From an uncultured Verrucomicrobiota bacterium (GTDB lineage Bacteria; Verrucomicrobiota; Verrucomicrobiia; Palsa-1439), in the NCBI GenBank assembly GCA_903847335.1, contig CAINDI010000136.1:1-42574 (forward strand): DNA of 42,574 nt, written 5' to 3'. The notes beneath the pieces are model-generated. The model made no database searches, had not been told where the DNA came from, and saw nothing but the letters and a program-made list of their open reading frames with translations. Below are positions 9,463 through 37,475 of this stretch, piece by piece. Position 1 is the stretch's first letter. The number at the start of each line of letters is the position of its first letter. A program made the position numbers and the translations under genes.

Positions 9463-9494
9463 TTTTCGGCCATGCAATAACAGTTTTTGGACAT
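9463..9494 (-). promoter_or_regulatory. Paired 21-bp-spaced boxes upstream of the 1464-aa repeat gene
   Basis: On the plus strand TTTTC-GGCCAT begins at 9463 and TTTTT-GGACAT at 9484, the two GG positions (9468 and 9489) being 21 bp apart. The same 32-bp arrangement occurs at 27926, 32294 and 37361. The near edge is 97 bp upstream of the start codon of the 4971-9365 gene. I read it as two direct half-sites for one regulator on the same DNA face. Confidence 0.7.
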
Positions 9495-9574
9495 CAATTA
9501 TTTCTTCGTAATTCGTTACTCACCAACTACATCACCGGTACTGAAAAAAACAGAAGACATAATGAAAGCTGTCG

Positions 9575-9590
9575 TTCACAAAACCGTAAC
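9575..9590 (-). promoter_or_regulatory. Distal GTTAC motif upstream of the 1464-aa repeat gene
   Basis: Read on the minus strand it is GTTACGGTTTTGTGAA, matching the shared consensus GTTACnGTTnnGTGAM. Its GTAAC (plus strand) starts 97 bp from the second GGACAT box, against exactly 96 bp at the other three promoters. It lies only 22 bp past the end of the tpsA gene. Confidence 0.6.
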
Positions 9591-9611
9591 AGCGGCGGTA
9601 GCATTCAATTT

Positions 9612-12600
9612 TTAGCCTTTTCGGTCGTCATCGTCTCCGCCGCCATAGCCCAACACTTCGACCGAAATCAGCGAGGGAAGACTTTCCTGTGTGACTGAAG
9701 TTTCCCGCGCTTGTCCGATGGAATCGCTGGATCCGGTGGTAGCCGCCGCAGTTGCATTCGCGGCATTCATTCCACTCGTGTTTAAGGAAACGGTAAGCGC
9801 CGGCACACCGGCGCTCACTCCTTGAGCTTGAATATTGCCGACATTCAAAACCTGCGCCGCGGCAAGGTTGATATTACCGGACACGCGAATCCCCGCATCA
9901 CCGGCGTCAATGGTTCCCGTCGGCGCAATCAAATCAACATTCCCCGGAGCCACACCCGCAACACTGGTGAGCACACCAATTCCACCACCGGTGGCTAAGC
10001 CGGCGAGATCGGTTTTGACTTCGCCACTCTGCGGATCAACCAGCACCCGCGTCGGCGGAGCTGACTGCACAGTTTTCGAAGAAGCACCGGCAGCGATATT
10101 ACCGAGCGACGACCAGATCATGACGTTTCCGCCGCGCAATGTGAAAATCCGAGATGTTCCGACATTCACATTATCCCGAGTGAAAATCGAAATATTGCCA
10201 CCGTCTTCCGTCAAGATGCCTTGATCCACCGCTTGATTACCACTCAGGTCAATCCCCACCTGCAACTGCCCACCGGGCGCGAGCAGACTGATGTTCCCGC
10301 CGCTCGTTGTTTTGATTTCGCGGGAAGTGAGATCAATCGAACCATTCCACGGTGTGGCGGCGGGAAACAAAGCGGCAATCGCCGCAAATCCGGCATTGTA
10401 ATTTTTGTATCCCGGCGATTTCGAATCGTTGTGGTCGCGGCCAGCATCGCGCAATACCAGATAGAAAACATCCAGCGCCAGGCGGTCTTGTTGCTCAGCA
10501 TCCTTGTTCTTAAACGCAGTCCAAATTTGCGATAAATCACTGCCGGAGCTTAAACCCAACAGCGTCGCAACCTCCGGTAGATACCGCGGCGCATAAAGAT
10601 TCGCCGAAGTCGGATCCAAAAATTCGGTGATGAAACTCTGGAAGTTCAGTGTGCTTTGACTCAGCCCAACCGGGTCGCCAAGACCTGCTAATGCAATAAT
10701 GTCGGCTCCGGCAAACGGCAAACCCGGATTCCGCGCATTGCCGACGCTAGTGATTCCCACCGCAGTGCCATCGGTGTTGTTGGGACCAACGCCGAGCGTC
10801 AGGTTTCTACCAGCCAATACTTCCAGCGCGCCGGGACCGTTAATCTGAATATCGCCTGCCGTCGGTAAACCGAATTGTGATAAAAGCAGTTCGTTATTTC
10901 CGCTTTGTGCTGCCGTGCGCAGTTGCGAATTCGGATCGTAAGCAATGATGTCCCGACCCGCACTCACCACGCTCACATCACTCGCCGCGACATTCTGTAG
11001 ATAGAGCGCGATGTCGGTAATGTCTTGACCGGCGACCACGCGAGCTGATTTTCCGGAAAACAAGGTGAGACCGGAAATGTTCCCATCAAGCGCATAAAGA
11101 TAAACTGGGTTCGGATCACCGGCGTGGAGTAAATCAGGAGCGTGCAGTGCCAATTGCGTTTGCAAAACACCAAATGCTCCCTGCGAAGAACCAGATTCAT
11201 TAAACAAGATGTTGATATTTTCAAACACCCCATTAAAGACATTGATGCCCGGACTACTCCAGGCCGCTTTTTCTTGAGAAACTGTAGCCGCAACACCCAA
11301 ATAGGAAAGTGACAACGGTGAGGCAACACCCGGGATTCGATTGGGATTCGCATCCGATAGATTGATTTGGCTGGATCCCCACTGATAATTATGAGTTGTG
11401 GAATCAAGTCCATTCAGTTGCAGACCGTTGATTGATCCGGCCGCCATCAGGTCCAGTGTGCCGGTGGGTGACGGAGATAGCGTCACGCTTCCCACCACGT
11501 TGAAGTCACCGGAAAACGCCGTCGCCTGTAAGGTCGCCGGCATGAGCGCGTCCACCGTAGCAAATGGCGTCAATGTGATTTTGGTTTCAGCCAGTCTCAG
11601 CCACGGCTGCGATTTAGAAGCAAACGAGTTGGGATTCTGCGTATAGAGAAGAACGTTTTGATACCAACTCGCTAACGAACCGGCGGAACCATCGGAACCA
11701 GAATCCGCACTGTCTTTCAGTGTGATGGCACCGGTGAGCGATGCAATGTTGATCGCGTCGCTGAGGGCATAGGTTGAGAAATAGGATTTATTCCAGAAGC
11801 TATTGTTAATTCCTTGCGGCAAAAGAAATGGATTCGCTACCGGTCCCAGCAAGACATCGCCCTGAGCCGTAACATCAAAACTGCCTTTGCCTAAAAAGAG
11901 TGTGGTTGGCAACCACGTGGTTGAATCCGGAATAATATTATGAATCGCATCGTTATTAATCGTCATTTGATCCAACGCGGCTCGCGTCGGATTGGTACGA
12001 ATGGCATTTCCCGCTTGGAGAGTCCCCTGACCATTTTCAACGTAATAAACGCCGCCATTAATATCGTGACCGGCCAGAACTTGAAGATTTCCGCCACCGA
12101 ATTCCACCAAAGCGCTCGCCGCGGGAGTTCCTTTGGGCATCCGCGCATTGGTTGGAATTACCGCATCCACATTGCTCACATCGTGTCCAGCCGTCAGCGT
12201 CACGTTCCCACCACCAAGCGCGCCGACATCCATGAAGAAATTGGAAAAATCAACCCACCACGAAGTCGAAGCAACTTCGCCACCATTATGCGTAATCCCA
12301 AATTGGCCGGTGCCCGGATCAATGTAGCCCCGCCGGTAAAGCCAGTTCGTCGGCAGTTCGAGCGAGGAAATCGGCGAAAGCGAACCATCGTAATTCACCT
12401 GATAACGGACAATATCGTTTTGCGCCGCAAGCGTTACATTCCCACCGGCAAGACTATACTGCGCAAGATACGGAATGGAATATTGCGGTGTGCCGAGACC
12501 GGTGCCCGTGGGATAAGCAAGATTGGGTAAATCGAAATTCGGAAGCGGCGCGGCTTGAGTGCCGGCCGTATAAATCGTCGCCAGCGGACTTAAAAGTTGA

Positions 12601-15600
12601 ATGTCTCGTCCCGCTGAAATCTCAATGTCACCTGTTCCCGTCCGAATCGTTTGATAAAATCCGGGAATAATACTTTGCGCCGGTTGCGTCGAATTCAAAA
12701 ACGGCCCCTTGACCTGCGCATTGTTCCCCAAGAGAAGCGAACCTTGATTCGCGTTCAGCAGAGTCAACGACTGAACCTGAAGCGAATTGGCCGCACCAAA
12801 ATCCGCTCCGGCAACTAACCGGTACGACCAAGATTGATCGCCGACCGGTGAAAGAGCCGCCGAATATGCAGCGCTTACAAAACCATCACTCAGCGAAGCA
12901 AATTGGTGCAGTGCCGCATTGTAGTTAAAATCAAGATTCCCTGCCGCGCGTAAAGTGAGTACGCCCGGTTGATTCTGTGATCCAAAACGGAACGTCGATA
13001 AATTCCAAGTCGTATCCAAAGTTAAATCGCCACTCGAATTAATAATTTCCGCACCGGGACGAATCACCACCACCGGCGCAAGCGCGCTGTTATTCGCAAG
13101 GAGCCGGTCCATGATTGCCGCGCTATTACCGGCAAAGGTCGTGCCGTTGACGAAAACATTATTCTTTACCGTGCTGTCAATCGTCGCGCCGCCGGCGTTG
13201 TTGAGATTGAAAAGTTCGTAGCCCTCGATCACGATTTGGGAAGCGTTGACAATCGTTCCGTTGATTGGATTGATTTGCAAATCGAGATTGTTGGCCGTCT
13301 GCGGTGCGCGCAGATGTAAGGTACCGGTAAAGTCACCGGCGGCAGCGCTCACCGTTCCTAAATTAGCTGCGACCGAGAGATTAATTGTGGCGCCACTTTG
13401 AATATCCACCACCGCGCTGCCATTGATGTTGCCGTTAATCTCTTGGCCGGCCGCAATGGAAACGCTTCCACCTTTGCCGGCGCTATTGAAATTGTCACCC
13501 TTCACACTCAACAGCGCATTCGCTTCCAAAATCACGCTTCCGGAGGCGGCGAGATCAATCGCGCCACCGGTGGTACCGGAAGCATCAATGGTTCCGGTCA
13601 CCGTAATGTTCCCATTATCCGTCGAGAGAATGAAAGTCTGAGCGGTCGCTAAACCATCCAACAGAACATCGCCATTTCGGACGCGAATCGAGCGCGACAG
13701 TGTAAAACCATTCAAATTCAACGCCGCATTCAAAGAAGCCAGACTTGGGTTCGGCAGAGTTCCCACATCCAGCTGAAAGGTTCCACCCTGACCGGCCACT
13801 CCGCTGTTTCCCGATAGCGTTCCATTCAGTGAGAAACTTCCGTTGGGTGCGTGAATCGCGACGCTACCGGCATTCCCGCATTGCGTCGGCGCGGAGACAT
13901 TCACAGTACTGCCGGCGGCCACGACAACAGAACCAAGATCAGAAATTAAAGAAACGCGTCCACCACCCGTGTATCGCACTTGATCGTAAAAAGTTTTAGC
14001 GATTCCGCTCACATCAATCACACCCATATTTCCGATGACAACATCGCCGGCGGTCGCTTCCAGTTGCAGCGTACCGCTGGGTAATGCGATTTTGCTGTTA
14101 TCGGTAATGCTCGCTCCCACCAGAGTTAATTGCGCGCCAAGACCCGAGGAAAGCGTTGCGGAGGATGCCGCCGGATCTAGCGTGACATTACCGGTCGCAC
14201 GAATGGTTTGATTCGCAGCGGCAGCACCGGTGATTATCGGCGCAGTCATAGTGAGATCACCGGCCAGCGTGAAACCACCGGAACCTTGTAGGAGAATTCC
14301 TTTCGACGCATTCAATTCCAGTTGAGCGAACTGGTCGATTTGATACGCATTAGCACCGAGTGTGATGACGCCGGCATTAAAAACTAACGTTCCGCTACCG
14401 GCGTTCACCGCACCGGGCGCGGTACCGTTCGCGCTGTTATCGAGGAGAATGTTTTGCGCGACAAACTGGACGGTTCCAGCACCTTGATTAAAGCCGCGGA
14501 TTTCAGCGGCGTGCAGCGCCAGATTCGCCAGCGTGCTTTGACCGATTTGACCGACGCCGTAGGTGTCGATGGAGGAATAACTCAACAGCGATAACGATTG
14601 CGCACTGCCTTGTAAACTTTGGAGCGCCGTCCCGGAAAGAAGCAGCCCCCCCACCGATTGGAGATTACCGGGATCCGTGAGTGCCAAACTAATCTGACCG
14701 CTCGCAATCGCAATGGATTTCCCGTTCACAATCGCCGCCGGATCAATCGTGGTTAATCCGGTCGAGTCAAGGGTGATGCTGGTTCCTTTCAATTGCGCAC
14801 CGGCTCCAATGGAAAGAACCGGCTGCGTCGAAGAATTCACACCCGACCGACTACTCGTTGCGGTTGGGTCGGCGCTCACTCGCAATAAAACTCCATTGCC
14901 ACTTCCCGGAGTTGAATTCCCCAGCAAAATTGTTTCGGCGGTGCCGGACAACGCGCCGGAGGCTTCGATGTTGGCACCGGGCGCCAGTGTTAGCTGATGA
15001 TTCGCCACCAGAATAATGTCTGGGCCTTTCAACGGTGTGGCAGAATTATCTACGGTGATGTTGCCGGTTTGGACAGTCACTCGAGTTCCTGTCGAATCGG
15101 TTTGCTGAATGCCGCCAATCAATAAGCTGGCATTGAACGAACTTAATTCAGCCGCGCTGAGAACCAGCACTCCGGCTTGATTTGGTGTGCCAGCATTCGC
15201 AATGAGAATGTCTTCCGGCGAGCTGATTTCAACCAAACCCGCGAGACCGCCACTGCCTGCCGCGGCCAGCACATTCCCATTCAGGGACATCGTTTGCGTC
15301 GCCGAGAACACCAATTGGCCGGCATCGACGGGAAGACGCGGCGGGACAGTTCCCGCTGCGGTTGCGGCTTGGGCAAGAACGCTATTGGCTAAGAAATTAT
15401 TATACTGCGCCCGCGAATCCACCACCGTGGCCGACGCCACATTAAATTCGGCAATGAATGGTTGCCCACTGACATTCGGGTTCAAAGTATTCAAGCGATA
15501 CCCGGCCACCAGACTCGATCCATCCGGTAAAGTGACCGTGGCACCGCTGGGTGTTCCCGACATCGGAGTGACAAGAAATGCGCCCGGCAACAAAGCATAA

Positions 15601-18600
15601 CGCGCCGGTAATAAAGTATAGGTTCCGGCCGCCAAACCAGAACTAGCATTGAGATAAATCTGACTACCGACGGCCAAACTGCTGTTCACATAACCGAGAT
15701 CGGAACCAAAGATACCGGCGACCACCGGTCCCGGATTATACGGTGCGAAAGGCGCGTAATTCGCCTGATAACCCGGGAGAATGGCAAAGCTCGATGCAGA
15801 ACCCAAAATATCCTTTGAGCCACCGTTACCGGAAATCCACTGATACGCATAAAGGTCGCCGCCACCGCGAATGTCGATTTGCGCACTAGGATCCACCACC
15901 ACATTGGCGGCGGAAAGTTGAATTGATTTCGCCGGCGCACCACCACGCGTAATGTCGACACCGGTGGGATCAATCCAAGAAGTGCCATTGACTTCAATTC
16001 CGTACGGAATCACAACCGCCTGTCCGGTGATTGGATCAATGGCCGAAACCGAAGTGACGCTGTTATTTCCAAGAGTCAGTTGCTTGGTGGAGGCAAATGT
16101 CGCGCCGGACATAAGATCGCTCGGCGCAGTCCCGGTCCCATCCCACCCCAACTGGATGGTTCCGAACGGCGCACGCAAAACACCATCCTGATTAATCGTT
16201 GAGGCATAAATCGCCAGCGTGCCACCGGCGGAGAATGGAAGCTGACGACTGCCGGATGCTTCAATGGTGACTGAGCCGGATTGCAGGCTGTTATTCAGAT
16301 TGTAATCAAAAGCGGCAATCGTAAAACTCGTGGCGGTGGGCGGATAAATCTGACCGGCGCGGAGCGTCATATTTCCCGCCATCTCTAAAGTGCCATCACC
16401 GCGAATATCTCCACCGGTGGCGATAAAGTTTGCTTGACCAATATTTTGCAACGAGAGCGAGCCGATATCAATGAGACTGGTGGCCTGAACCGTCAGATTA
16501 CCGGAGCCATAAGTCGGTGAAAATTGGACCGGTTGATTCGCTCCATTGAGAAATGGCGGCTGAATTTGCGAGGCTTGCTGCGGAGCTTGGAATGGCGTTC
16601 CCAAATCAATATAAGGCGCGGTCAGAGTGACAGAAGAGTCCGCAAAGATCACACCGCCGACCACCGCAATCATTCGATTCGCTGTGAGATTCACTGGACC
16701 GGAGAATTGAACCGTCCCAGCTAAAGTCAACGAATCAAAACCACCCGCCTGAAATCGGTCGGCAGAAAAATGCCCGTACCCCGGAATCACTTGGGACGAG
16801 CTATCCAAAACCGGATAACCAATCGCAGTTTCTCCGACTGGATAGAGCGAGGTCGCCAGAACTAAATCCGGTTGCGAGATCGCCAGTGTAATATCGAGCG
16901 GAGTTTTCGAGGCGCTGCCAACCAGCGGCGAATAAAAGCGTCCGGAAGATACCGTGAGATTCCCGCCGAACGCGGTTGACCCACCGGCGGCTCCTTTCAG
17001 GGTGGCTTCGCAAATGAGTTCCTGAGCACCGGCCAAAATAATCGAACCGCCATTGCTATCAATCCGCGTGGGAACCAACGCTGTGCCACCGGAAGTTGAC
17101 GACGGACTTGTTCCCAAATACCCCGGCGCGACCTCAAGCATGTCAGTCGTACCGGAGACATCCAGCGTCGCCCCAGATTCCGCCAGAATATTACCGGAAA
17201 CTTTAATCGTGCCACCGGGGAGCACGGAACCAATCCGGTAATTCAGTAGATTCGGCGTCAGCACAGTCGTGCCGCTCGCCGATAAAACGCTATTCGGTCC
17301 CAAGTCCACTGTGATTAACGCCTGCTGTTGATCGGGAAATAGCGATGCCGAGTTCGCACCACCGGCAATTGTAATCGTGCCGGCCGGCGCGTAGACCGAT
17401 CCCAACACGGCCACAGTGTCGCCGCTGAAACTCACGGTTCCCAGCGGGTCGGTTTGAATCACCGCCCCTTCGCCCATAACCAAATCGCCGCGAACAACCA
17501 CTGGATTCGCCGCTAAATTATCTCGGACGCCACTCGCGCGGAACGATAAACTCACCGGTGTCCGCAAGCCCTCAGGCTTGAGAATTTTTTCTAAAGTTGA
17601 CACACCATTAGGACTCCCAACCGCCACGAGACTTTGCACCTCGGGCGCGATGATTGTATTCGGCGCGATAACCAGTCCCGGTAGATAGGAATCTGGCTGA
17701 GCGCCTTGGCTTCCGAGACCGGTGAGCGCAAAACTACTAAAACCTCCGGCACTAAAAAAGTCCGGCGCTAAAAGCAACACATCCGGATTCGCAGTGACCC
17801 CACCAATCTGAATCAACGGCGCCAGCACACTCAACGAACCGCCTTTCGCTCCGGAATAGGCACTCAAGTTCGCATCAAAAGTCAACGAACCGCCGATGAT
17901 GGCTGTAATATTCGGGTCTTGTCCTGCATTGATGGTGATATTCCCGCCGTTCCCATACGTCCGGCTACCGGTGGCACTCGTCAACACTCCACCGGAGGCG
18001 TCGATGGTGCTTCCTAGAGCTAAATCGACATTATAACCTTTGAGTGAGATGCTCCCACCGGCAAGATGAGTCGGCACCAAGTCGGTGGAATAGCTCAGCG
18101 CAATCGTTCCGGCGACACTCAAACTTGCTGCCGAACCAAGCGTCAATGTGCCACGCGTTGGGTCCGGTGCTGGAGTCGTCAACGAAGTTGAATTCTGCGC
18201 AGCGCGATTGAAATTATCCGGTGAATAATCATAGACCGTGAATTGCAAATTCCCACCGGGCGCATTTACGCTGCCTTCAATATCCAGATTAGCCGCGGAA
18301 AATTTGATCGAACCACCCACCACACTCGTCAGCACAACTTGCGCCGGAATCATGATTGAGCCATCGCTGTTTTCGATGCTGACGGAACCAAAACCATTTG
18401 GGCCGATTAAATTCGGTGACAAAATTACTTCTGTTTTCCGGGCGGTGGCCAACGGTAAAGGATTCCCGGAACCATCCAGTGCAAACGGAGCCGCCGGTGC
18501 CAAATCCGAACTCGCTTGAAATGAAATCGCCGGCGGCGTCGGCGAGAATGGCAAGAAGGAAGGCGTGCTGATGTCTTGGGTTTGAAACGTCAACGATAAA

Positions 18601-20732: not shown

Positions 20733-21433
20733 TTACTTGGCAATTTCGCACTGGGTTCCAACCGGAGCTTTTCCCGGTAAGACGCTAAATCTTTTTCACT
20801 TAACGTTACTCGGTCGCTCTGCAATTTATCTTGGTAATCTTGAACAAGATTTTGCAGCTTCACGCGAGTGATACCGATGAACGGCTCCCGCGCCATCAGC
20901 GCATCACCTAAGCCAAATTTTTCATATCGCTGAAGAATTTCACTCGCCGTCTTATACAAGGCGAGATTCTTCGTTTGGCGATCTACAATCAGTCGCTCCA
21001 TCCCATTGACAACTTCCTCCACAAGCTTGGCGTGTTCCGCCTCTTTGGTGCGGGCTAACTCTGCCGCTTGCCGAGTAGTCTCAATTGTTTCTTTGAACTG
21101 TGAATTTTCTTTTTCCAGATTAGCAATCTGAGCTTTAAGACCTTCCACAACCTGAGCGGTCAACTTGTTCTCATTAACCTGTTTGGTTAGCGCTAAATTT
21201 CTTTCGGTCAGCTTGCCTTTTTCGTCCGTCCATTGGGTTTGGGCGGCTTGAAGTGTTGCGCGCTCTGTTTCCGCTGTGCGCAATTGGAGCATGGTCGCTC
21301 GCAACCGCTCGCGCAATTGTGCCTCGGGAGTTTGCGTCGAATCTGCTGCCGGAGTCATTTGTGTTCCGAATAAGCAAAAAGCTCCGAGCATCAAAATCAA
21401 GTTTCGTTTCCGCGATAATTTGAGTGATTTCAT
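20729..21433 (-). CDS. Periplasmic coiled-coil protein in the TPS operon
   Basis: A 234-residue protein with a signal peptide (about 1-29) followed by a long charged helical region at about 38-135 with heptad-like patterns (KLTERNLALTKQVNENKL), and a more mixed C-terminal part. I do not recognise a named family. Its stop overlaps the TpsA start as ATGA, so the two are translationally coupled, and it starts 5 bp after the porin gene. The position directly before a 3706-residue exoprotein suggests a periplasmic chaperone or spacer that handles TpsA before export. That role is inferred only from context and shape. Confidence 0.75.
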   Translation of the reverse strand: MKSLKLSRKRNLILMLGAFCLFGTQMTPAADSTQTPEAQLRERLRATMLQLRTAETERATLQAAQTQWTDEKGKLTERNLALTKQVNENKLTAQVVEGLKAQIANLEKENSQFKETIETTRQAAELARTKEAEHAKLVEEVVNGMERLIVDRQTKNLALYKTASEILQRYEKFGLGDALMAREPFIGITRVKLQNLVQDYQDKLQSDRVTLSEKDLASYREKLRLEPSAKLPSK

Positions 21434-21437
21434 ATAA

Positions 21438-23165: not shown

Positions 23166-23171
23166 GAGTAA

Positions 23172-24293: not shown

Positions 24294-24294
24294 G

Positions 24295-27836: not shown

Positions 27837-27925
27837 GCCACTGAGTAAAAATTAAAAATTCCACCGACGAGGCCAACCTCCGGTGGCGGAGACTCTACAA
27901 GGATTAGCGGGTGTAGCTCACACAG

Positions 27926-27957
27926 TTTTAGGACATGAGCTTCTACATTTCGGACAT
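27926..27957 (-). promoter_or_regulatory. Paired 21-bp-spaced boxes upstream of the TPS/Ton operon
   Basis: Plus-strand TTTTA-GGACAT at 27926 and ATTTC-GGACAT at 27947. Both GGACAT cores are perfect, and their first bases (27931 and 27952) are 21 bp apart. This is the best-conserved of the four copies in the core. It lies directly upstream of tpsB and would control all seven genes down to tpsA. Confidence 0.75.
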
Positions 27958-28015: not shown

Positions 28016-28052
28016 GTCACAAAATCGTAACACTGCGTCACTGAACAGTAAC
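28016..28052 (-). promoter_or_regulatory. Two distal GTTAC motifs upstream of the TPS/Ton operon
   Basis: Minus-strand GTTACTGTTCAGTGAC occupies 28052-28037 and a second copy, GTTACGATTTTGTGAC, occupies 28031-28016. The two are 21 bp apart, again two helical turns. The first copy has the 96-bp distance to the GGACAT pair seen at the other promoters. They sit just 16 bp or more before the 3' end of the barrel gene to the right, inside a 231-bp non-coding gap. Confidence 0.65.
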
Positions 28053-28067
28053 TTGGCGGAAAAAACG

Positions 28068-29318
28068 CTAAAATTTGATGGGATAGGCAATGGTAATTGT
28101 AAGCCCCGGCGAATCTTCAGTCAGCCCCATTGCAGCGGTGAAATTAAACACTGAGTTGCGAGTGACCGCCCAAGCAAATCCGAACCGAAACTGCGCCTCG
28201 TTGAGTGATGAACCTTGCACTGTGCCAACTCCGGTGAGTTCTGTGCTGAAGGTATAGCGCTCCAACACACCGAGATTAATGGCAAAGGATGGATTCATCG
28301 CGATTGCCACCGCCACTCCGTTATCGATACTACCGCCGGGCTGGTAGGTGGTGGTAATCACATTCGTTCCGGTGCTGGTAATTTGTTGTGCGGTGAGGTC
28401 TCGTCCAAAATTATAGGTGTATCCAGTATTAAAAATTAGAACTATCGGGTCCATAGTTTTAATCGCCGTGATCCCATTGCGCACACCCCAAACTCCCGCC
28501 CCTTGGGCGAGTTGGCTATTACTGTGAATATCAAACTGGCTCTTGCCAATCGGGGCGCGGCCGGTGGACTGAACGATGAGGTCGGGAACCCAACCGTGCT
28601 CGTGCAACAGTTGATACGACAATCCCAATTGCGGATCACCAATCCCTTGGTCATGCCGGCCAGACTCTTTGGGGGCAAGTTGTACATTGTTTTGGTAAGA
28701 CTGCGTCACATACCGGTCCGTCTCGGATTGCCACGGCACCGAAGCATCCACCTGTAGATTCGGTAAAATTCCGTATCGGAGTGCCAGTTGAGTCTGAAAA
28801 ACATCGCGTTCCACTCGTAGTGCTTGGATATTCCCGATAATCAGCACCGGTAGGATGGAAAATCCATCTACGTTGATAAAATTGCGAGAAGTGTGTGAAT
28901 AGGTAAAACTTGGTTCGACATCAAATTTTCCCTGCGGAAGTAATACACCACTGCGTTGCACACTCTGAATGGCACGCTCACGCTCGACGCGCTCCCGGTC
29001 CTTCTCAGCTTCAGTTTGTTCTTTCGGTGTCTCAGTAGGTGCGGGTGTTGGCGCTACCGGAGGCACTGGAATCACCTTCAGCTTTTCTTCCTGACGCGCG
29101 GCTTTCAATTGGTCAAGTTCGGAACGCGTCTGCTTCAATTCATCGGCGAGGTTTTGAATCAGCTTCAAAATCTCGGCTTTACCTAGATTGTCGAGATCGC
29201 CAACCAAGCCGGTGGAAGCAGTCGCTGGAGCAACATTGCTGTCGGTCGCCCCAAGGCATACTGAAGTCATCAGCAGCAACGCTAGCATGCTGAGAATACA
29301 AAGTCTGAACTGTGTCAT
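28068..29318 (-). CDS. Outer-membrane barrel with N-terminal coiled coil, FapF-like
   Basis: A 416-residue outer-membrane protein. Signal peptide about 1-23. A short coiled coil lies at about 40-78 (EILKLIQNLADELKQTRSEL), then a proline-rich linker (IPVPPVAPTPAPTETP) and a charged helix. The beta-barrel begins near 125 (GKFDVEPSFTYSHTSRNF) and ends in AYPIKF with a terminal Phe. FapF, the outer-membrane exporter of Pseudomonas functional amyloid, has the same plan (coiled-coil periplasmic part plus barrel) and similar length. It lies 94 bp after a FapD-like C39 peptidase. I infer it is the export pore for the small secreted proteins upstream. It could instead be a generic transporter-like barrel; homology to FapF needs a profile search. 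Confidence 0.78.
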   Translation of the reverse strand: MTQFRLCILSMLALLLMTSVCLGATDSNVAPATASTGLVGDLDNLGKAEILKLIQNLADELKQTRSELDQLKAARQEEKLKVIPVPPVAPTPAPTETPKEQTEAEKDRERVERERAIQSVQRSGVLLPQGKFDVEPSFTYSHTSRNFINVDGFSILPVLIIGNIQALRVERDVFQTQLALRYGILPNLQVDASVPWQSETDRYVTQSYQNNVQLAPKESGRHDQGIGDPQLGLSYQLLHEHGWVPDLIVQSTGRAPIGKSQFDIHSNSQLAQGAGVWGVRNGITAIKTMDPIVLIFNTGYTYNFGRDLTAQQITSTGTNVITTTYQPGGSIDNGVAVAIAMNPSFAINLGVLERYTFSTELTGVGTVQGSSLNEAQFRFGFAWAVTRNSVFNFTAAMGLTEDSPGLTITIAYPIKF

Positions 29319-29412
29319 CCGGTTCTCTTAGTTGGTCGGACATCAGCCTTGCGTCACTGTGTCGCAATCTCGTGGCAGCCGAGTGACGAATGCGTGACGA
29401 TTATCCGTAGGA

Positions 29413-30168
29413 TTAGAACTCGCCTTTGTAGTGTGGTACAAAGCCGATTCCCTCGGCCTGCAAGAGACTACGAGTCATGTCTTGAGAAACAAATCCCTGC
29501 TTGGTTGCATCCGGCTGCCAGTCAACTGGCACAAGTCCTTTTTTAGATTTCAGAACCATGCCGATTCCATTGCGCCAAATGTCCGTGAAATTGCCCGCCT
29601 TCATCGTCATATTCCCCACCATCGGATCGGTTAAGAAAACGCGGTCCGCTTGCACACCTCGAAACACGACGAAATGATCGTAGCCGCGAATCCGAATCGG
29701 AACGATGACTGGCGATTTCAGCTCGACAAGATCCGCGAGCGTCATCTCAGAATAGCCAATGGACTTGAATCCAATGGAGGCGGCAGCTGTTTTGAGATCG
29801 AGCAACGAAAATCCCTTTTTCTCTTTATAACGCCGGATCGCTTCCTCCTGTCCGTGCTTATGAATAATAAAGGCGACGACAGATTCTTCCGTCACGTTCA
29901 GTTTGTAATAGTATCGCAACAAGGTGGTCAGCGCGGCCGCTCCACAACTAAAATCATATTTCTGCCGCACCGCACGTTCATCTTTCAAATCTTTGAAAGT
30001 GCGAACTTTTTTGGAGATGTTCAATCCATACGGTAGACTCACTGACACATTTGGCGGTTGCTCCGGTGGAGTTTCGTTCGCAGCATGAACTGCCGGCGGA
30101 ACGCACCAGCTAATCGCAAGACACAGCCCACCTAACCAATGGGTTAGTGCTGAGCTTTGCCAAGTCAT
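29413..30168 (-). CDS. C39-family cysteine peptidase, FapD-like
   Basis: An exported cysteine peptidase of the C39 (bacteriocin-processing) fold. From the chosen Met, a signal peptide covers about 1-29. The active-site region RQKYDFSCGAAAL places the oxyanion Gln at 69 and the nucleophile Cys at 75. GYDHFVVFRGV gives His 165 and FLTDPMVGN gives Asp 181, so the full set is present. The GFSLLDLK motif is typical of stand-alone C39 proteins such as FapD. I chose the ATG at 30168, which follows GAGGAAATTTC; the longer reading starts at a TTG inside the terminator hairpin. There is no ABC-transporter domain, so this is not a bacteriocin exporter. Its neighbours are three small secreted proteins and a FapF-like barrel, and it probably processes or assists export of these. 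Confidence 0.87.
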   Translation of the reverse strand: MTWQSSALTHWLGGLCLAISWCVPPAVHAANETPPEQPPNVSVSLPYGLNISKKVRTFKDLKDERAVRQKYDFSCGAAALTTLLRYYYKLNVTEESVVAFIIHKHGQEEAIRRYKEKKGFSLLDLKTAAASIGFKSIGYSEMTLADLVELKSPVIVPIRIRGYDHFVVFRGVQADRVFLTDPMVGNMTMKAGNFTDIWRNGIGMVLKSKKGLVPVDWQPDATKQGFVSQDMTRSLLQAEGIGFVPHYKGEF

Positions 30169-30190
30169 GAAATTTCCTCGTAGAAAAACA

Positions 30191-30223
30191 ACCGGAGCCA
30201 ACCGCGCTGCCGCTGGCTCCGGT
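30191..30223 (-). terminator. Intrinsic terminator inside the amyloid-like operon
   Basis: A perfect 10-bp stem (30191-30200 with 30214-30223, ACCGGAGCCA and its complement) encloses a 13-base loop. On the minus strand it is followed at once by TGTTTTTCTA. It lies between the last small secreted protein gene and the peptidase gene, so some transcripts probably end here and the peptidase and barrel are made in lower amounts. Confidence 0.75.
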
Positions 30224-30231
30224 CGATTTCC

Positions 30232-30792
30232 TTAAGGATGAATCGTGGTGGTATTCTGCACACCTGTATTTTGTGTGCCGGTATTGCCTTGATTGACCGT
30301 TCCCACCGTCGAGTTGATATTAACGTTGAGATTCAACATTACCGAGATGGTGGAATTAACCGAGAGAATGTTCACCATCGAGGATAGATTTTGTTGGGCC
30401 TGATCACTGAGAGAGATGTTTTGGGTGCTATTGTCATTCAGCGTCATATTACCGGACTGGGTCATATCAAATGACCCGACAATTCCACCGCACTGCCCAT
30501 CCATTTCGTGATCATCCATCTCGCGGACCTTGTGCAGTGCAACTTTTGTTTCAGTTCGCACCGGTACGGCTTCATTGGAACTTTCGGCTTTCTTAGGCTG
30601 ATTCACCGGAGAATCTGGCACTGTTTTTTGTATGTCAGCCGATTGAGCTACCGGAACGGAAGGCTCCGGTACCAAATCACATTCATTCTGTATCTCGTCG
30701 CAAGGTTGAGCCTGCAAAAGCGGAATTGCGGCCCACACCAGTGCGACCGCAGCCATCCCAATCAAAAATCTTTTCCCGAAATTATTTTGCAT
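30232..30792 (-). CDS. Small secreted protein with N/Q-rich C-terminus (amyloid-like subunit candidate)
   Basis: A 186-residue exported protein, signal peptide about 1-29, then a disordered acidic linker of about 60 residues with two Cys. The motif DDHEMDGQCGG (about 92-102) matches the D-x-E-M-D motif of the two genes upstream. The last 80 residues are rich in Asn, Thr, Ser and Gln with beta-pattern repeats (GNMTLNDNSTQNISL, LNLNVNINSTVG), a composition like that of functional-amyloid subunits. The ATG follows AAAGGATGACAAA. No named family is recognised. Its place before a FapD-like peptidase suggests it is a substrate: a minor subunit, nucleator or FapE-like companion. This is inference. 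Confidence 0.7.
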   Translation of the reverse strand: MQNNFGKRFLIGMAAVALVWAAIPLLQAQPCDEIQNECDLVPEPSVPVAQSADIQKTVPDSPVNQPKKAESSNEAVPVRTETKVALHKVREMDDHEMDGQCGGIVGSFDMTQSGNMTLNDNSTQNISLSDQAQQNLSSMVNILSVNSTISVMLNLNVNINSTVGTVNQGNTGTQNTGVQNTTTIHP

Positions 30793-30842
30793 TTTGTCAT
30801 CCTTTCATACTCTGTGATTCCACTCTCTCTTTAACAGCCTTA

Positions 30843-30877
30843 CAGGAGTCCCTAGGCGCATTGCCTAGAGACCCCTG
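30843..30877 (-). other. Strong hairpin between two small secreted protein genes
   Basis: A 15-bp stem (30843-30857 with 30863-30877) and a 5-base loop form in the transcript. Two of the pairs are G-U in the minus-strand RNA. No T-run follows, so it is more likely an mRNA-stability or processing element than a terminator. It would protect the 3' end of the upstream 234-aa gene message, as expected where one subunit must be made in excess. Confidence 0.6.
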
Positions 30878-30912
30878 CTTTATTTTGGCTGTACGTCTCC
30901 GGATGGAAACGA

Positions 30913-31617
30913 TTAGTTGCTCTGAATGAGCGTATTGATTTGGCTGATCGAAGTTCCAAAGGAACCACCGATACCAAGGCCAACAACATTGCCACTGCCC
31001 GACGTCAATGAATCATTTGCGGCGTTGATTCCGACCGCAACGTTATTGAGACCGGCGGCATTCACCACACTCAGCACTGCAACGGTTTGCTGAGCGGTCG
31101 CGCCAACATCAACCGAATACACGCTGCCATCAGTCACTGTTTGATCGCCATGACCAATCTTGACAGTCCCTGCGGCCGTGATCGTTGTGGAGGCTAAGCC
31201 ACCAGTAACATCACCAGCAGTGGTTGAAACCGTTCCGTCAGTCCACGTTACACCATCAGCTGTAATCCCCGTGTTGTGCGTCTGTGTGATATCGTTGTTC
31301 TGTGTGGCATCCGCTGCATTGGCAGTCGGATCCACGTTCAAGGCGTTCACAGCCACGGCTACGTTGTTAACACCAGCCGCGTTGACAACGCTCCCACCCA
31401 CAACTGAACCTTGGCCATCCAAGGTCAAGGTGTATGCACTATTGTCAATAATGGTCTGCTCTCCATTACCGATATCGATCTGACCCGCAGCTCCGGCGGC
31501 GGTGGTCTGATCCATTTCTTGATCGTTCATCGACTTCGCTGCGAAGCTCGACGGAACTCCAACCAACAAGCTCCCACAAATTGTGAGGGCGCCAATCACT
31601 ACCATGTGCTTCTTCAT
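30913..31617 (-). CDS. Secreted repeat protein, candidate major amyloid-like subunit
   Basis: A 234-residue exported protein, signal peptide about 1-26, then the motif MNDQEMDQTTAAG. Two imperfect repeats follow, each with a GNGEQTI/GHGDQTV lead and a SVVNAAGVNNVAVAVN or SVVNAAGLNNVAVGIN core, separated by a Thr/Asp-rich linker. The NAAG-NNVA core is reminiscent of the repeat motifs of FapB/FapC-like and related fibre proteins, and the composition (Ala, Val, Asn, Gly, Thr; no Cys) suits a cross-beta fibre. A very good ribosome site (AAGGAG) and the stable hairpin after the gene suggest high expression. I infer a major structural subunit. A plain secreted beta-solenoid is the alternative. Confidence 0.75.
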   Translation of the reverse strand: MKKHMVVIGALTICGSLLVGVPSSFAAKSMNDQEMDQTTAAGAAGQIDIGNGEQTIIDNSAYTLTLDGQGSVVGGSVVNAAGVNNVAVAVNALNVDPTANAADATQNNDITQTHNTGITADGVTWTDGTVSTTAGDVTGGLASTTITAAGTVKIGHGDQTVTDGSVYSVDVGATAQQTVAVLSVVNAAGLNNVAVGINAANDSLTSGSGNVVGLGIGGSFGTSISQINTLIQSN

Positions 31618-31744
31618 TATACCTTCTCCTTTAGTTTAGTTTGTGTTTTTTCCATCTCAAAAACGTCAGCCATAGCGACCCGTTTCTGAATTTCCCCTTC
31701 GCAAATTGTGCGAAAGAAAATTGTTGTGACCGGAGCGTGATTCA

Positions 31745-32248
31745 TCAACGCATCCCTCCGATTCCTTGAACGCCGGAAAATGGATTGAACCCAGGCGGCA
31801 GCACTAGTTGATTCTGCTGTAAAGAATTCTGCACGCTTGGCAATGTTTGCATATTCACGTTGAGACTGCCGCTGATCTGCACCGTGCCATTCATTACTTG
31901 CACTTCCGTCGGAGAAATCGCAATCGGCGTGGCCCCGGATTTCGTCGGCACACCCACCGTCACCGGTGAGCCAGAGAAAACGGTTGTTTTCCCCGCTGAA
32001 TTTGGAATCACTTCCACGCTGATGGTTCCAGAGCCGCTCACCATGCCAAAGGAAGTTTGCTGACTAAAGCTAATCACTTGATTCAGCGTCACGGAATCCA
32101 CGCTGATTCCCGTTGAACCTTTAGCGCAGACTTCATCCATTTCTTCATCGGCCATCACTCGCGGTTTTGCTTGGAGCGCCGGCGCAAATATACAGAGCAA
32201 CGCCAAGCCGACCGGCACCACTGCAATTCGCGTTATAAATTCTCTCAT
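31745..32248 (-). CDS. Small secreted protein, first gene of the amyloid-like operon
   Basis: About 167 residues, signal peptide about 1-27, then VMADEEMDEVCAKGSTG, the first of the three related D-x-E-M-D motifs. The rest is a beta-rich Ser/Thr/Val sequence with SQQTSFGMVSGSGTISV and a Gln/Asn patch near the C-terminus (QNSLQQNQLVLPPGFNPF). No family is recognised. A GTG directly before the ATG at 32248 could also serve as start; no strong ribosome site precedes either. It is the first gene after the conserved boxes at 32294-32325 and is followed by two more small secreted proteins, the C39 peptidase and the barrel, all in one direction. Confidence 0.72.
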   Translation of the reverse strand: MREFITRIAVVPVGLALLCIFAPALQAKPRVMADEEMDEVCAKGSTGISVDSVTLNQVISFSQQTSFGMVSGSGTISVEVIPNSAGKTTVFSGSPVTVGVPTKSGATPIAISPTEVQVMNGTVQISGSLNVNMQTLPSVQNSLQQNQLVLPPGFNPFSGVQGIGGMR

Positions 32249-32293
32249 CACGATGCACGCAAACTACCGTTTGGCGGAAAAGTCTTCATTCAG

Positions 32294-32325
32294 CTTTCGG
32301 ACAATAAACTTCAGATTTGGGACAT
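32294..32325 (-). promoter_or_regulatory. Paired 21-bp-spaced boxes upstream of the amyloid-like operon
   Basis: Plus-strand CTTTC-GGACAA at 32294 and ATTTG-GGACAT at 32315, with the cores at 32299 and 32320, 21 bp apart. Both copies are preceded by CAG, as are most copies at the other promoters. The near edge is 45 bp upstream of the start at 32248, the closest of the four. The same gap also serves the divergent plus-strand gene at 32553. Confidence 0.72.
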
Positions 32326-32404: not shown

Positions 32405-32420
32405 GTGACGCAACAGTAAC
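32405..32420 (-). promoter_or_regulatory. Distal GTTAC motif upstream of the amyloid-like operon
   Basis: Minus-strand GTTACTGTTGCGTCAC, differing from the consensus GTTACnGTTnnGTGAM at one base. Its GTAAC (plus strand) begins exactly 96 bp from the second GGACAT core. It lies in the shared gap between divergent genes and might also act on the plus-strand gene. Confidence 0.62.
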
Positions 32421-32552
32421 TCTCGGCCGATTTCCACCGGTCACTTCCAACCTGTACCGGTGGATAACTGTCACTGCTTTGTCACTTTCCTGCCATGCGA
32501 TTGCGACAAAGCAATGCTTTTTTGCCTAGTCCAAATCTCTGGAATAAAAATC

Positions 32553-33069: not shown

Positions 33070-35916
33070 CTAATGACAGCCGATCGCCGTCTTCTCACCA
33101 TTCACGGCACTGGTCAACGCGGTCGCGTCGTTCGTGTTCATGATCTTGGTTGAGAGATAAGCACTGATCTTGGTGATCGCCGCAGACAATTGGGCACACG
33201 CTGCACTAATTTTCGAGTTCGCTTGAACTTGTGCAGTGGTCGCCTTTGTAGCTGCAATCTTCGCCGCATTCGTACCCACTTTGGTGCCGAGCGCGTAATC
33301 AGCCACCTTTACGGCTGTCCAGTAGGTATTCGTCGCTTGATACACCGCCGCTTGGCCTTCATACAGCTTCGCGTTGGTGAGGTTGGCAATGATGCCGTTC
33401 GCACGAGCAACACCCAACGTATTCGTGACACTCTTCTTGCCAATGATCACGATGTTCACATCATTCGACATCCCGCCCACTTGCGCAATGATGCCGTCAA
33501 TACCCGCACTGTTGACCTTCACAGTGAAGCTGCTGGTCGCAGTCCGGCTCGCGGCATCCGTCACCGAGCAATTCACGGTGGTGGTGCCGAGCTGGAACAA
33601 CGTACCGGAAGCTGGCGAGCAGCTCACGGAACCTGGTGTATTGCAGCCGCTAGCGGTCGGCAACGAGTAGGTAACTACTACGTTTGTCGTGCTCGCATTC
33701 GGTGTGTTGGTGGTGATGTTAGCCGGAGTCCCGCTGAGGGTCGGCGCATTCGTCGAAACAACCACAACGTGGAAGCTGTTGCTGCCAATCAGTCCTTGCG
33801 TATCAGCCTGTGTGCAGGTGACCAAGGTGCTGCCGTAGCTGAACGTCGAGCCGAAAGCCGGCGAGCAAACTACGCTACCACTGAGTGGATTGCAGTTATT
33901 GGCAACGGTTGGATTCGTACCGGTCACCACCGCGCTGCCGCAGGAGGCAACGATATTGGTGACTTCGGCATGGCTATTGATTGTCGGCGCAGTCGTCGAC
34001 TTGACCACAACGTGGAAGCTGTTGCTGCCAATCAGTCCTTGAACATCTGCTTGTGTGCAGGTGACCAAGGTGCTGCCAATGCTGAACGTTGTGCCGGAGG
34101 CTGGCGAGCAAGCAACGCTACCGCTGAGGTTGTTGTTGTGGCTCGCGACAGTCGGGGCTGAATAGGTCACCGCTGTGCCGCTGCAGGAGGCAGTGCTGTT
34201 GGTGGAATCCGCCACGCTGGTGAGGACCGGCGCAGTCGTTGACTTAACAACGACATTGAAGCTCCGGGTTCCCACGAGACCGTGAACGTCTGTCACCGTG
34301 CAGCTCACCGCAGTGCTGCCAACGTTGAACGTCGAGCCGGAAGCTGGCGAGCAGCTCACGCTACCGTTCAATGCATTGCAGTTGCTGGCAACCGTCGGGG
34401 CTGAATAGGTCACCGCCATGCTGCTACCCGCAGTGCTGTTGGTTGAATCCGCCACGCTGGTGAGCGCCGGCGCAGTCGTCGAATTGACAACCACGTGGAA
34501 GCTCGTGCTCGCAACCAGATTTTGAGAATCGGTCACTGTGCAGCTAACGAGTGTGCTGCCGAGGCTGAACGTCGAGCCAGAAGCTGGCGAGCAGCTTACG
34601 CTACCCATTGGCGTGTTACAGCCAGTGGCAACGCTTGGGGCCGAATAAGTCACCGAGGCACCACTGCAAGAGGCAGTGCTGTTCGTGGAATCCGCCACGG
34701 TGCTGAGCGTCGGTGCAGTCGTTGAAATGACTGTGACCGTGAAGCTGTTCGTCCCAGTCTGATTGATTGCGTCGGTGCCGATACAGGTGACAGTCGTCGC
34801 CGTTCCAACGTTGAACGTCGCGCCGGAGGCTGGCGAGCAGACAACATTCACTGGCGTCGCGCAACCGGTGCCGGTTGGGTTCGTGAAGCTCACGACCGCA
34901 GAGCAACCAGCAACATTCGTGCTGATGTTCCCGTGACTGGCAACCGTCGGGGCTGAGGCGGCAATGGTCACAGTCGCCACCGCGCTGGTGGAGAAACCGG
35001 AACCATCGGTCACCGTCAAGGTCACATTCGTCTGACCCACCGAGAACGGACCGGTGTTATCGAGAGCGAGCAAGAGGCAGTAGCCGGTCGAGCCGCCGTC
35101 AATATCATTCACCGTCACGTTCGCGGTGCAACCCACGCCCGCTTGAATCACGATGCTGTTTTTGACAATCGCAGCAGTTGACTGCGCAGCGATGAAGCTG
35201 AGACCGGTGTCTCGCAAAACAAGGTCGCCCAAGAAGGTGCCAGGTTGGCCACCGATGGCGTTCGGTTGCAGTTCGTACAACTGCGACACGACCACGTTTG
35301 TGCCTTGGTAGTTATCGATGGTCGGATTGAAGAAGCTGAAGCTTGTGCCGCCGCTCTTCATATCCTGCGCGAACCAGCTACCGGCCGCTGTCGCACTGAC
35401 AACAGTTGAGTAGTCGCTGTTTCCGGTGCTGGTGGCTCCTTTTAACGGAGAACCAGAGTTAAACAACGGCTCAATGATGGCCGAAGCGCTCTGCTGCGCA
35501 TTGGCGCTGCCGCGTTTCCACGCTGGCGCGCAATTCGGTGCGCTTGCCCACAACGTCTTGACTGGCACGTTCACGACACCGTTTGAGTAACCAGCTGCCC
35601 GACCCGCCGTCGCCACTGTGCCCCAGTACAAATCAACGCGATTGTACCAGTTGGTGCCGTAGGTGTTCGAGAGATCCGCTGTCGAGAGAGCCGACAACGT
35701 GTTGGTTGAACCCGGCGTCAGTCCGTAGAACTGGCTGATTGGGCCGAGGTCAACTTCCAAGCAGGCCACGGAAGAGTTAGTTCCGCGGAAACCTAAGATC
35801 AAATCACCATAATTGGGATTGATCGTCGCACTCTGCGCCACCGGCGTCAGCAGTGCGGCACTGGCGATTGCCAGTAGCGCCATCTTGAAATGGCTGCTTT
35901 TTGTTTGTTTCATCAT
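33070..35916 (-). CDS. Secreted HYR-repeat protein (948 aa)
   Basis: An exported modular protein. Signal peptide about 1-29. The N-terminal domain (about 30-245; GDLILGFRGT, VDLGPISQFYGLTPGS, AWKRGSANAQQSAS) is homologous to that of the 4971-9365 protein. A degenerate repeat at about 250-325 is followed by six Cys-containing repeats of about 80 residues. Each has a VSCSPASG-TF-GST-V-CTVTD pattern, as in HYR (hyalin) domains. The C-terminal ~130 residues are quite different: Ala/Lys/Asn-rich and probably helical (KVGTNAAKIAATKATTAQVQ), with a last Cys. AAGGAAAAT precedes the start. A strong terminator follows the gene. Most repeats keep their Cys; the third full repeat has lost one. A cell-surface or matrix role is inferred. 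Confidence 0.85.
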   Translation of the reverse strand: MMKQTKSSHFKMALLAIASAALLTPVAQSATINPNYGDLILGFRGTNSSVACLEVDLGPISQFYGLTPGSTNTLSALSTADLSNTYGTNWYNRVDLYWGTVATAGRAAGYSNGVVNVPVKTLWASAPNCAPAWKRGSANAQQSASAIIEPLFNSGSPLKGATSTGNSDYSTVVSATAAGSWFAQDMKSGGTSFSFFNPTIDNYQGTNVVVSQLYELQPNAIGGQPGTFLGDLVLRDTGLSFIAAQSTAAIVKNSIVIQAGVGCTANVTVNDIDGGSTGYCLLLALDNTGPFSVGQTNVTLTVTDGSGFSTSAVATVTIAASAPTVASHGNISTNVAGCSAVVSFTNPTGTGCATPVNVVCSPASGATFNVGTATTVTCIGTDAINQTGTNSFTVTVISTTAPTLSTVADSTNSTASCSGASVTYSAPSVATGCNTPMGSVSCSPASGSTFSLGSTLVSCTVTDSQNLVASTSFHVVVNSTTAPALTSVADSTNSTAGSSMAVTYSAPTVASNCNALNGSVSCSPASGSTFNVGSTAVSCTVTDVHGLVGTRSFNVVVKSTTAPVLTSVADSTNSTASCSGTAVTYSAPTVASHNNNLSGSVACSPASGTTFSIGSTLVTCTQADVQGLIGSNSFHVVVKSTTAPTINSHAEVTNIVASCGSAVVTGTNPTVANNCNPLSGSVVCSPAFGSTFSYGSTLVTCTQADTQGLIGSNSFHVVVVSTNAPTLSGTPANITTNTPNASTTNVVVTYSLPTASGCNTPGSVSCSPASGTLFQLGTTTVNCSVTDAASRTATSSFTVKVNSAGIDGIIAQVGGMSNDVNIVIIGKKSVTNTLGVARANGIIANLTNAKLYEGQAAVYQATNTYWTAVKVADYALGTKVGTNAAKIAATKATTAQVQANSKISAACAQLSAAITKISAYLSTKIMNTNDATALTSAVNGEKTAIGCH
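33471..35166 (-). repeat. Tandem ~240-bp coding repeats (HYR domains)
   Basis: The coding sequence repeats with a period of about 234-243 bp, six full units and one degenerate unit. Phrases encoding ADSTNSTAS and GLIGSNSFHVVV recur nearly unchanged between neighbouring units, a sign of recent duplication within the array. Confidence 0.8.
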
Positions 35917-35968
35917 ATTTTCCTTAAATGCTTTCGTTTTGAGTTATTTTTGTTTTTGAACACTCAGA

Positions 35969-37138
35969 TCAATAAGGGCTGCCAGCCGTGACGACCGCGC
36001 CTTCGCTTTGACGACCGACATTCATGCCGCTGAGGAGAACGGCTGCGTCTGTGTCATGAATCTGCTTCGCAATCTTGTCCGCAACAACTTTCTGATTGCC
36101 AGCCAAGCCGCTGCGATACATCAAGTGCTCATAGCACCAGAACGTATATTGACCGTTTTGCACGCCTGCGAGACTGTAGGGGAATCCATTCCAGTTCATG
36201 AACGTTGCACCGGTAGCCAAATTGGTCGCCGCTGCACCATCACCCGTCGAGAGATAGGCAACCACAAAGCCGAGTCCTGCGCCCACTGGGGTGCCGACTG
36301 CGCTGGCAAGTGTGCCACCGCTGCTATAGCCAGAATGACCAACGTCATAGGTCGTGCCATTGACGGTGTTGACCGGCCAAGCATTCATCGCTGTGATCAA
36401 ACCACTGGCACCAAGAGTACCGGTTGGTTGATATTGGAACGGCGCGCCGAAAATCCCGAAGCCAGATTCAGCAAACGCACCTAACCGTGTGCCGGAATCT
36501 TCATCGCGACCAAAAACTTGAACATTGACAGCCGCATCGGCTGGGTTAGCAGTCCACTGCGAGAGTGGAGTCTGACCCGCGAGCACGGTTTGAGCCAACA
36601 GAGTCGTCATATTGACCATGTTGGATGGGGAGCCAGCACCACGAACCCAGGTGAATGGCGCTACGCCAACAACCTGATCAACCAAGGCTGGCGTCGTGAA
36701 CGCAGTCGCGCCCTGGAATGAGTCGCTCATCGCCATGTCTGCCGTCACGGCTGAGTCATGGATACTGAGGTTGTTTGCACCGGTGCCGCCGCTCAAGTTC
36801 GTTGCTGTCAACCAATTGGCGATGGTCAAGTTTTTGGTCAAGTTTTGAACGCCACCGACTGATCCGGACCATGAGGTCTGAATGATCACCGGAATCGCAC
36901 CGGCGTTGACTGTGCCTTTGAATACTGCCTGACCGGCGCCACTGATCGTCGCACCGGCACCAGCATAACCGAATGTATAACCCGCATCTAGGATATGCAG
37001 GATTGCGTTATGCGTCTGATTCCGGTACGCGGTGGAACCGGTGAGACGCAGGGTGATGGTTTGCGCGGAAGCCGAGCCAGCAATTGTTAATGCTGTCACG
37101 CCCGCGATCATTGTTGCTACACACTTCTTCATACTCAT
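35969..37138 (-). CDS. PstS-like periplasmic substrate-binding protein
   Basis: About 389 residues, signal peptide 1-26 (TALTIAGSASAQ). The mature start, ITLRLTGSTAYR, and the later GRDEDSGTR (about residue 209) are the two loops that hold phosphate-like ligands in PstS/PBP-like proteins. The reading frame extends upstream to 37294, but the ATG at 37138 follows AGGAGGAAGAGAGT and gives a proper signal peptide, so the shorter form is used. No pst permease or ATPase genes are adjacent, so it may act as a ligand carrier or sensor rather than as part of a classical transporter. The gene is under the same paired boxes as the surface operons. Phosphate binding is likely by family but not proven; related proteins of this style may have other roles. 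Confidence 0.75.
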   Translation of the reverse strand: MSMKKCVATMIAGVTALTIAGSASAQTITLRLTGSTAYRNQTHNAILHILDAGYTFGYAGAGATISGAGQAVFKGTVNAGAIPVIIQTSWSGSVGGVQNLTKNLTIANWLTATNLSGGTGANNLSIHDSAVTADMAMSDSFQGATAFTTPALVDQVVGVAPFTWVRGAGSPSNMVNMTTLLAQTVLAGQTPLSQWTANPADAAVNVQVFGRDEDSGTRLGAFAESGFGIFGAPFQYQPTGTLGASGLITAMNAWPVNTVNGTTYDVGHSGYSSGGTLASAVGTPVGAGLGFVVAYLSTGDGAAATNLATGATFMNWNGFPYSLAGVQNGQYTFWCYEHLMYRSGLAGNQKVVADKIAKQIHDTDAAVLLSGMNVGRQSEGAVVTAGSPY

Positions 37139-37475
37139 ACTCTCTTCCTCCTGATTAGTTTTGTTTTTATGTTTCTGACAATTTCTCTGAGCCCGCTCTG
37201 CCCGCGGCACCCCGATACAATCGAGTAGCCAGCAGTCGGCCGCGGGTCTGGTCGCTAAAATTGTGCTCTTCATCAGTGCACTTTCTTCCGACAACCTTGG
37301 GCACTTCTACTTCTACTCACGTAGCGCACTATACGTTTGCGACGAAATAGCTACTTCCTATTTTCGGACAAGCAACGACAGTTCGCAGACATCTGTAGCG
37401 TCAATGTAATCACTTGATGCCGAATGAGATGGGAGAGATTGAACCGGTGAGACATCTAACCTTGCGGTTGGTTCA
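37139..37475. other. Long non-coding leader of the PstS-like gene
   Basis: This 337-bp gap holds the paired boxes at 37361-37392. Between the boxes and the start codon lie about 220 bp, much longer than at the other three promoters, so a long 5' untranslated leader or an additional promoter is likely. I see no clear riboswitch fold by eye, and the in-frame extension at 37139-37294 has no protein-like signal. Confidence 0.55.
37361..37392 (-). promoter_or_regulatory. Paired 21-bp-spaced boxes upstream of the PstS-like gene
   Basis: Plus-strand TTTTC-GGACAA at 37361 and TTCGC-AGACAT at 37382, the cores (37366 and 37387) 21 bp apart. The second copy is the most diverged of the eight half-sites, but spacing and the preceding ACAG are kept. 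Confidence 0.65.

Follow-up and report, generated by a model that had tools for sequence, protein, structure and literature searches.

Four minus-strand surface-gene operons of the window, the whole stretch of 42,574 nucleotides analysed here (one whole contig, C136), are each preceded by a pair of similar boxes exactly 21 bp apart. We consider it probable (about 0.8) that these pairs are operators of an AraC-family factor, most likely the product of the AraC gene of the same window (Table 1), which co-activates the surface operons; in the absence of binding or expression data, both the binding and the activation are inferred. An earlier note on this DNA had listed four 32-bp sites with cores exactly 21 bp apart, all upstream of minus-strand transcription units. 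The sites were found at the coordinates that it claimed and the downstream genes are as it described; its reading can be extended, as a candidate regulator can now be named and an element about 95 bp further upstream had been missed.

Each of the four confirmed sites spans 35 bp and contains two ATGTCCnAAAnCTG-type boxes. Read in gene direction, the site is RTG(T/G)C(C/T)nAAAn(C)TG - N7 - (A/T)TG(T/G)CCnAAAnnTG, that is, a 14-bp repeat unit, (A/G)TG(T/G)C(C/T)nAAAn(C)TG, present twice with a 7-bp gap. The CAG reported before the boxes belongs to this unit. The four sites have 0, 0, 1 and 3 mismatches to the consensus; in 200 Markov simulations of the window, no more than three matches with up to 3 mismatches appeared, all of them at 3. 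Across the whole 2.35-Mb genome, the only sites with two or fewer mismatches are those of the window, and the final model, R3, at E<=0.2 returned four matches, which are exactly the four window sites. The absence of a similar pair elsewhere, stated in the earlier note, holds genome-wide at these thresholds. As a search pattern, plain GGACAT-N15-GGACAT proved too strict, with one match in the genome.

Table 1. Putative operators, upstream elements, proposed target genes and candidate regulator in the window
Feature	Position	Strand	Remark
Operator 1, ATGTCCAAAAACTG-N7-ATGGCCGAAAACTG	9460..9494	-	upstream of HYDIN1464-HYDIN1108 genes
Operator 2, ATGTCCGAAATGTA-N7-ATGTCCTAAAACTG	27923..27957	-	upstream of ShlB-ExbB-ExbD-TonB-Porin5-u234-FHA operon
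Operator 3, ATGTCCCAAATCTG-N7-TTGTCCGAAAGCTG	32291..32325	-	upstream of Fap-like amyloid operon
Operator 4, ATGTCTGCGAACTG-N7-TTGTCCGAAAATAG	37358..37392	-	upstream of PstS-like and HYR genes; weakest, 3 mismatches
GTTAC-N6-GTGAA	9575..9590	-	96 bp upstream of operator 1
GTTAC-N6-GTGAC	28037..28052	-	95 bp upstream of operator 2; further copy 28016-28031
GTTAC-N6-GTCAC	32405..32420	-	95 bp upstream of operator 3
GTTAC-N6-GTGAA	37472..37487	-	95 bp upstream of operator 4
HYDIN-type repeat protein, 1464 aa, N-terminal GDVILGF-type domain	4971..9365	-	proposed target of operator 1
HYDIN-type repeat protein, 1108 aa	1541..4867	-	after the 1464-aa gene
ShlB/FhaC-type TPS outer-membrane pore	26172..27836	-	first gene downstream of operator 2
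ExbB with LamG, ExbD, TonB, Porin_5, u234, 3706-aa TPS/DUF3739 exoprotein	9612..26160	-	remainder of operator 2 operon
Fap-like amyloid operon: three small secreted proteins, C39 peptidase (FapD-like), FapF-like porin	28068..32251	-	
PstS-like secreted protein, then HYR-domain protein with N-terminal GDLILGF-type domain	33070..37294	-	proposed targets of operator 4
AraC-family regulator, HTH_18 at residues 189-268, conserved N-terminal domain with LRASQLG	40351..41196	-	candidate binder of operators 1-4

The extents of the operons downstream of these sites are inferred. The 1108-aa HYDIN gene is probably co-transcribed with the 1464-aa gene, as judged from their spacing, and the operon behind operator 2 comprises seven genes. 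The TPS pore of this operon has its closest named relatives in MAGs of Spartobacteria, Akkermansiaceae and Verrucomicrobiaceae, from which a verrucomicrobial origin of the genome is inferred as probable. Its ExbB-type protein (621 aa, 24295-26160) carries N-terminal DUF2341 and LamG (concanavalin-like) domains in the same chain. The Fap-like operon matches the NCBIfam models FapF (E=2e-40, 139 bits) and FapD (E=2e-35, 122 bits) below their curated cut-offs of 700 and 330, respectively, and its three small secreted proteins have a D-x-EMD-type motif in common. A small signal-peptide-like ORF (32460-32879, plus strand) is divergent from this operon, with operator 3 in between. The TTG start of the PstS ORF is probably wrong, and MSMKKC near 37138, about 220 bp after operator 4, is the likelier start. 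HYDIN1464 and HYR948 have a common N-terminal GD(L/V)ILGF domain; the window targets share the GDLxLGF N-terminal domain and lack PEP-CTERM tails.

The AraC protein of the window has a C-terminal AraC DNA-binding domain with two helix-turn-helix (HTH) motifs (Pfam HTH_18, E=3e-20; HTH_AraC, E=5e-15), and its relatives in the PDB are RamA, Rob, MarA and SoxS. It is the sole member of its subfamily found in its genome. A profile search located this subfamily in 35 of the 384 genomes of the class, and in many families of the class the homologues adjoin genes for ShlB, FHA, ExbB, ExbD and PstS. Across the class, the homologues are only about 26-47% identical to the window protein, and not all of them are orthologues.

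The geometry of the sites is that of AraC-family operators. The exact 21-bp spacing is kept in 24 of 24 sites of alignment A5, and in held-out AraC loci a half-site matrix found 14 pairs at 21 bp, whereas most other spacings yielded about 4. An additional peak at 42 bp in these loci was discarded as noise, consisting mostly of weak unrelated stretches in which the middle copy does not match. Classical AraC/XylS operators (araI1-I2, XylS at Pm) are made of two direct-repeat half-sites two helical turns apart, with two HTH contacts per half-site, and are located upstream of the promoter. The window sites share with them the direct-repeat pair and the two-turn distance, but differ in sequence, targets and phylum. 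GGTCGC-N15-GGTCGC, a direct repeat, is bound by the AraC-family protein CdhR, whose footprint covers 34 bp (PMC5806209). Like the CdhR/GbdR-type operators of Pseudomonas aeruginosa, the sites described here are direct repeats whose 6-bp cores are separated by 15 bp, giving a 21-bp period, TGTCC(G/C)-N15-TGTCC within 35 bp compares with the 34-bp CdhR footprint, and the gene of the regulator, here a candidate, adjoins its target (PMC5806209). In contrast, the core is TGTCC(G/C) rather than GGTCGC, the targets are genes for surface proteins rather than carnitine genes, and 14 genomes encode the AraC protein as a fusion with an outer-membrane pore. The earlier note knew of no described site with this sequence, and this statement needs to be divided: the kind of site is not unknown, because direct repeats spaced by 21 bp are an AraC-family operator geometry (PMC5806209), whereas the sequence and the regulon are undescribed as far as we could find.

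On the proposed mechanism, an AraC dimer would place one monomer on each 14-bp half-site. The two HTH motifs of each monomer would enter adjacent major grooves, at TGTCC and at the TG that follows eleven bases later, which would place both monomers on one face of the DNA, two helical turns from each other. From a position about 40-220 bp ahead of the start codon, AraC would jointly switch on the TPS pore with its energising proteins, the giant exoprotein, the Fap-like amyloid and the HYDIN, HYR and PstS-like secreted proteins. In relatives, the same type of site may serve genes for PEP-CTERM proteins.

Sites of this type recur before surface genes in other genomes of the class. In G004, which belongs to the same genus, the two best sites (G004:C22) adjoin the orthologue of the window AraC gene, both of them shortly upstream of a start codon of a secreted protein, and no others with two or fewer mismatches were found in that genome. 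The first sequence model, built from seven sites (window genome G000, G004 and G379) and searched in 384 class genomes, revealed one new strong held-out match, in G166 (E=1.3e-4). This site lies within an AraC/PstS/ShlB/FHA/ExbB/ExbD cluster, upstream of a gene ending in VPEPGTWKLLGMSLVGFAVVLRRK. Weaker matches of this model in G157, G068 and G283 are pairs at exactly 21 bp, located some 100 bp upstream of genes for PEP-CTERM or secreted proteins, and a second model trained on 14 sites added further sites in G157, G215, G082, G332 and G004. Held-out exact 21-bp pairs come from G157, G283 (four paired sites within 18 kb), G068, G215, G082 and G332, many of them before PEP-CTERM genes, and the held-out matches mostly lie 70-160 bp upstream of start codons of secreted proteins. 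PEP-CTERM tails were seen by eye in the site targets at L127, L085, L089, L130, L128, L147, L150, L152, L153 and L158; other targets in relatives include response regulators, a prepilin-like protein and an AraC paralogue. Paired sites precede similar small response-regulator genes at L140 (G215:C10) and L143 (G082:C8), which suggests that the regulon includes further regulators.

Since models trained on other genomes place held-out sites before secreted and PEP-CTERM genes, the proposal of one regulator for a surface-building regulon gains support. The outcome named beforehand as refuting, a matrix that matches random or coding positions, was not met for the strong matches. Matches within genes were few and weak; those of R1 and R2 (L129, L133, L146) were judged to be due to chance, as was a match with 4 mismatches upstream of ShlB at L040. 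Conservation at orthologous promoters was confirmed only in part: the site recurs in other genomes of the class, but is absent at the orthologous TPS promoters L038-L041 and L043 (Akkermansiaceae-type and Spartobacteria MAGs).

The distribution of the sites follows that of the AraC subfamily. The subfamily occurs in every one of the nine genomes that have a site at E<=0.01 and in 11 of the 14 with a site at E<=0.05, versus 35 of 384 overall. Four of the seven non-training genomes with a site are AraC-positive (P=0.0007), as are 10 of the 38 site genomes obtained with the first model (P=0.0004; both hypergeometric, with phylogeny ignored). With R3, 32 sites were detected in the 35 AraC-positive genomes, many of them training sites, versus three weak sites (all E>0.13) in 35 AraC-negative genomes, controls that were not matched for PEP-CTERM content. 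Site and AraC gene occur on the same contig in the window and in G004, G379, G166, G332, G215, G157 and G283, and in G332 one site is located immediately upstream of an AraC paralogue. The AraC genes of G157, G283, G215:C10 and G332:C191 form a separate well-supported clade on the tree. No site was detectable with R3 at E<=0.2 in 21 of the 35 AraC-positive genomes, where the binding sites may have diverged or the link between AraC and the site may fail. The association could also stem in part from common possession of surface clusters or from common ancestry.

The element missed earlier is GTNAC-N6-GTNAC, mostly in the form GTTACnGTTTnGTGAC, with up to one mismatch accepted. Ten cluster promoters carry it, among them the four of the window, with its start 94-98 bp upstream of the paired site. 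It has 19 matches in 29 upstream regions, versus a mean of 2.1 and a maximum of 7 in 200 shuffles. Outside the window it was observed at L057 (near 6025), L127, L085, L097 and L089. A palindromic form, GTGACAGGANNGTCAC (GTGAC-N6-GTCAC), precedes ShlB of the TPS operon at L039, L040, L041 and L043, four Akkermansiaceae-type loci without the paired site, so the element is probably the site of another protein. Located about nine helical turns upstream of the paired site, it would probably bind a second DNA-binding protein. A conserved -10 element downstream of the paired site could not be defined across all promoters.

This arrangement leaves room for a different role of AraC, which might read the sites yet act as a repressor, or merely as a partner of a GTNAC-binding protein that is the real activator. 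The fixed position of the element in the ten cluster promoters and its occurrence before ShlB without the paired site are compatible with this role. However, the PEP-CTERM-type promoters of G157 and G283 carry the paired site without the GTNAC element, and AraC-family proteins are mostly activators; we regard this alternative as unlikely, though it keeps some weight. It is improbable that another regulator occupies the sites, for example a PhoB/OmpR-type response regulator binding in tandem steps of 10-11 bp (pho-box-like), with the AraC gene a mere neighbour. TG dinucleotides do recur at 11-10-11 bp steps, and the window encodes PPK2 and a PstS-like protein. However, the four quarter-sites are dissimilar, with only TGTCC and the far TG conserved and the 7-bp gap unconserved. 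A true Pho box, with tandem near-identical 11-bp repeats, is not met, as the quarter-sites differ and the conserved units repeat at 21 bp. Moreover, the sites track the AraC subfamily and its contigs, and neither the PEP-CTERM genes nor the other targets show an obvious connection with phosphate. That the pair belongs to the core promoter of an alternative sigma factor can hardly be maintained, since its fixed orientation and spacing close to start codons are offset by two facts: the boxes are nearly identical direct repeats, which -35/-10 or -24/-12 pairs are not, and their distance from the start codon varies widely.

The first PEP-CTERM proteins to be recognised came from a Verrucomicrobium. 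For Proteobacteria, control of PEP-CTERM genes by PrsK/PrsR-RpoN, through a sigma-54 promoter and a PrsR site, has been described, and Verrucomicrobium spinosum, with 65 PEP-CTERM proteins, was without PrsK/R/T in the same survey (Haft et al. 2006, PMC1569441). As in that system (PMC1569441), a cis-site that recurs ahead of PEP-CTERM genes points to a regulator of their own, but here it is an AraC-type paired operator in a Verrucomicrobia-like class. The conserved columns of our sites contain no -24(GG)/-12(GC) pair, and a PrsR/sigma-54 site was rejected. A literature search found no description of a PEP-CTERM regulator outside Proteobacteria, including a verrucomicrobial counterpart or a link to AraC.

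In the window genome, AraC and ShlB are separate genes. At 14 of 38 AraC loci, from 14 genomes and seven families, the AraC frame runs without a stop into the ShlB/FhaC-type TPS pore of the same surface cluster (L085, L086, L087, L091, L094, L095, L098, L205, L208, L210, L212, L214, L219, L220). The fused ORFs are 877-974 aa as read, and HTH_18, POTRA_2 and ShlB were identified by Pfam in a single ORF in all four fusions tested. Immediately behind the HTH, a basic stretch with 4-8 K/R in 20 precedes a hydrophobic segment, after which a small-x-small site is often found. L098 contains no possible start codon from the HTH to the hydrophobic segment, and several other fusions have none before the hydrophobic core, so that in these fusions a normal pore precursor is unlikely to be translated on its own. 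At least six changes of the fused state are needed on the AraC tree, two of which are forced by well-supported branches. An AF2 model of a fusion has a mean pLDDT of 63.5, a low confidence, and was used for the domain order only. The literature search for AraC fused to TPS or POTRA domains returned no relevant paper.

In such a fusion, the AraC domain would be cytoplasmic, followed by a signal-peptide-like segment and then by the POTRA domain and the barrel. The active regulator would be released or membrane-tethered, and pore production or failed export could set its amount; signal-peptidase cleavage followed by AraC release or tethering is a guess. We propose only tentatively, and with less than even confidence, that a class-wide surface regulon is controlled by an AraC protein made in many lineages as one polypeptide with its own pore, so that pore making or failed export could set the level of active regulator. 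If true, the fusion would couple the expression of surface genes to secretion capacity. Irrespective of this, the architecture itself, a DNA-binding regulator in frame with an outer-membrane pore, is striking. Now that a site has been defined, with a candidate regulator and a set of targets, it becomes possible to test how these mostly uncultured bacteria control their production of matrix, amyloid and giant adhesins.
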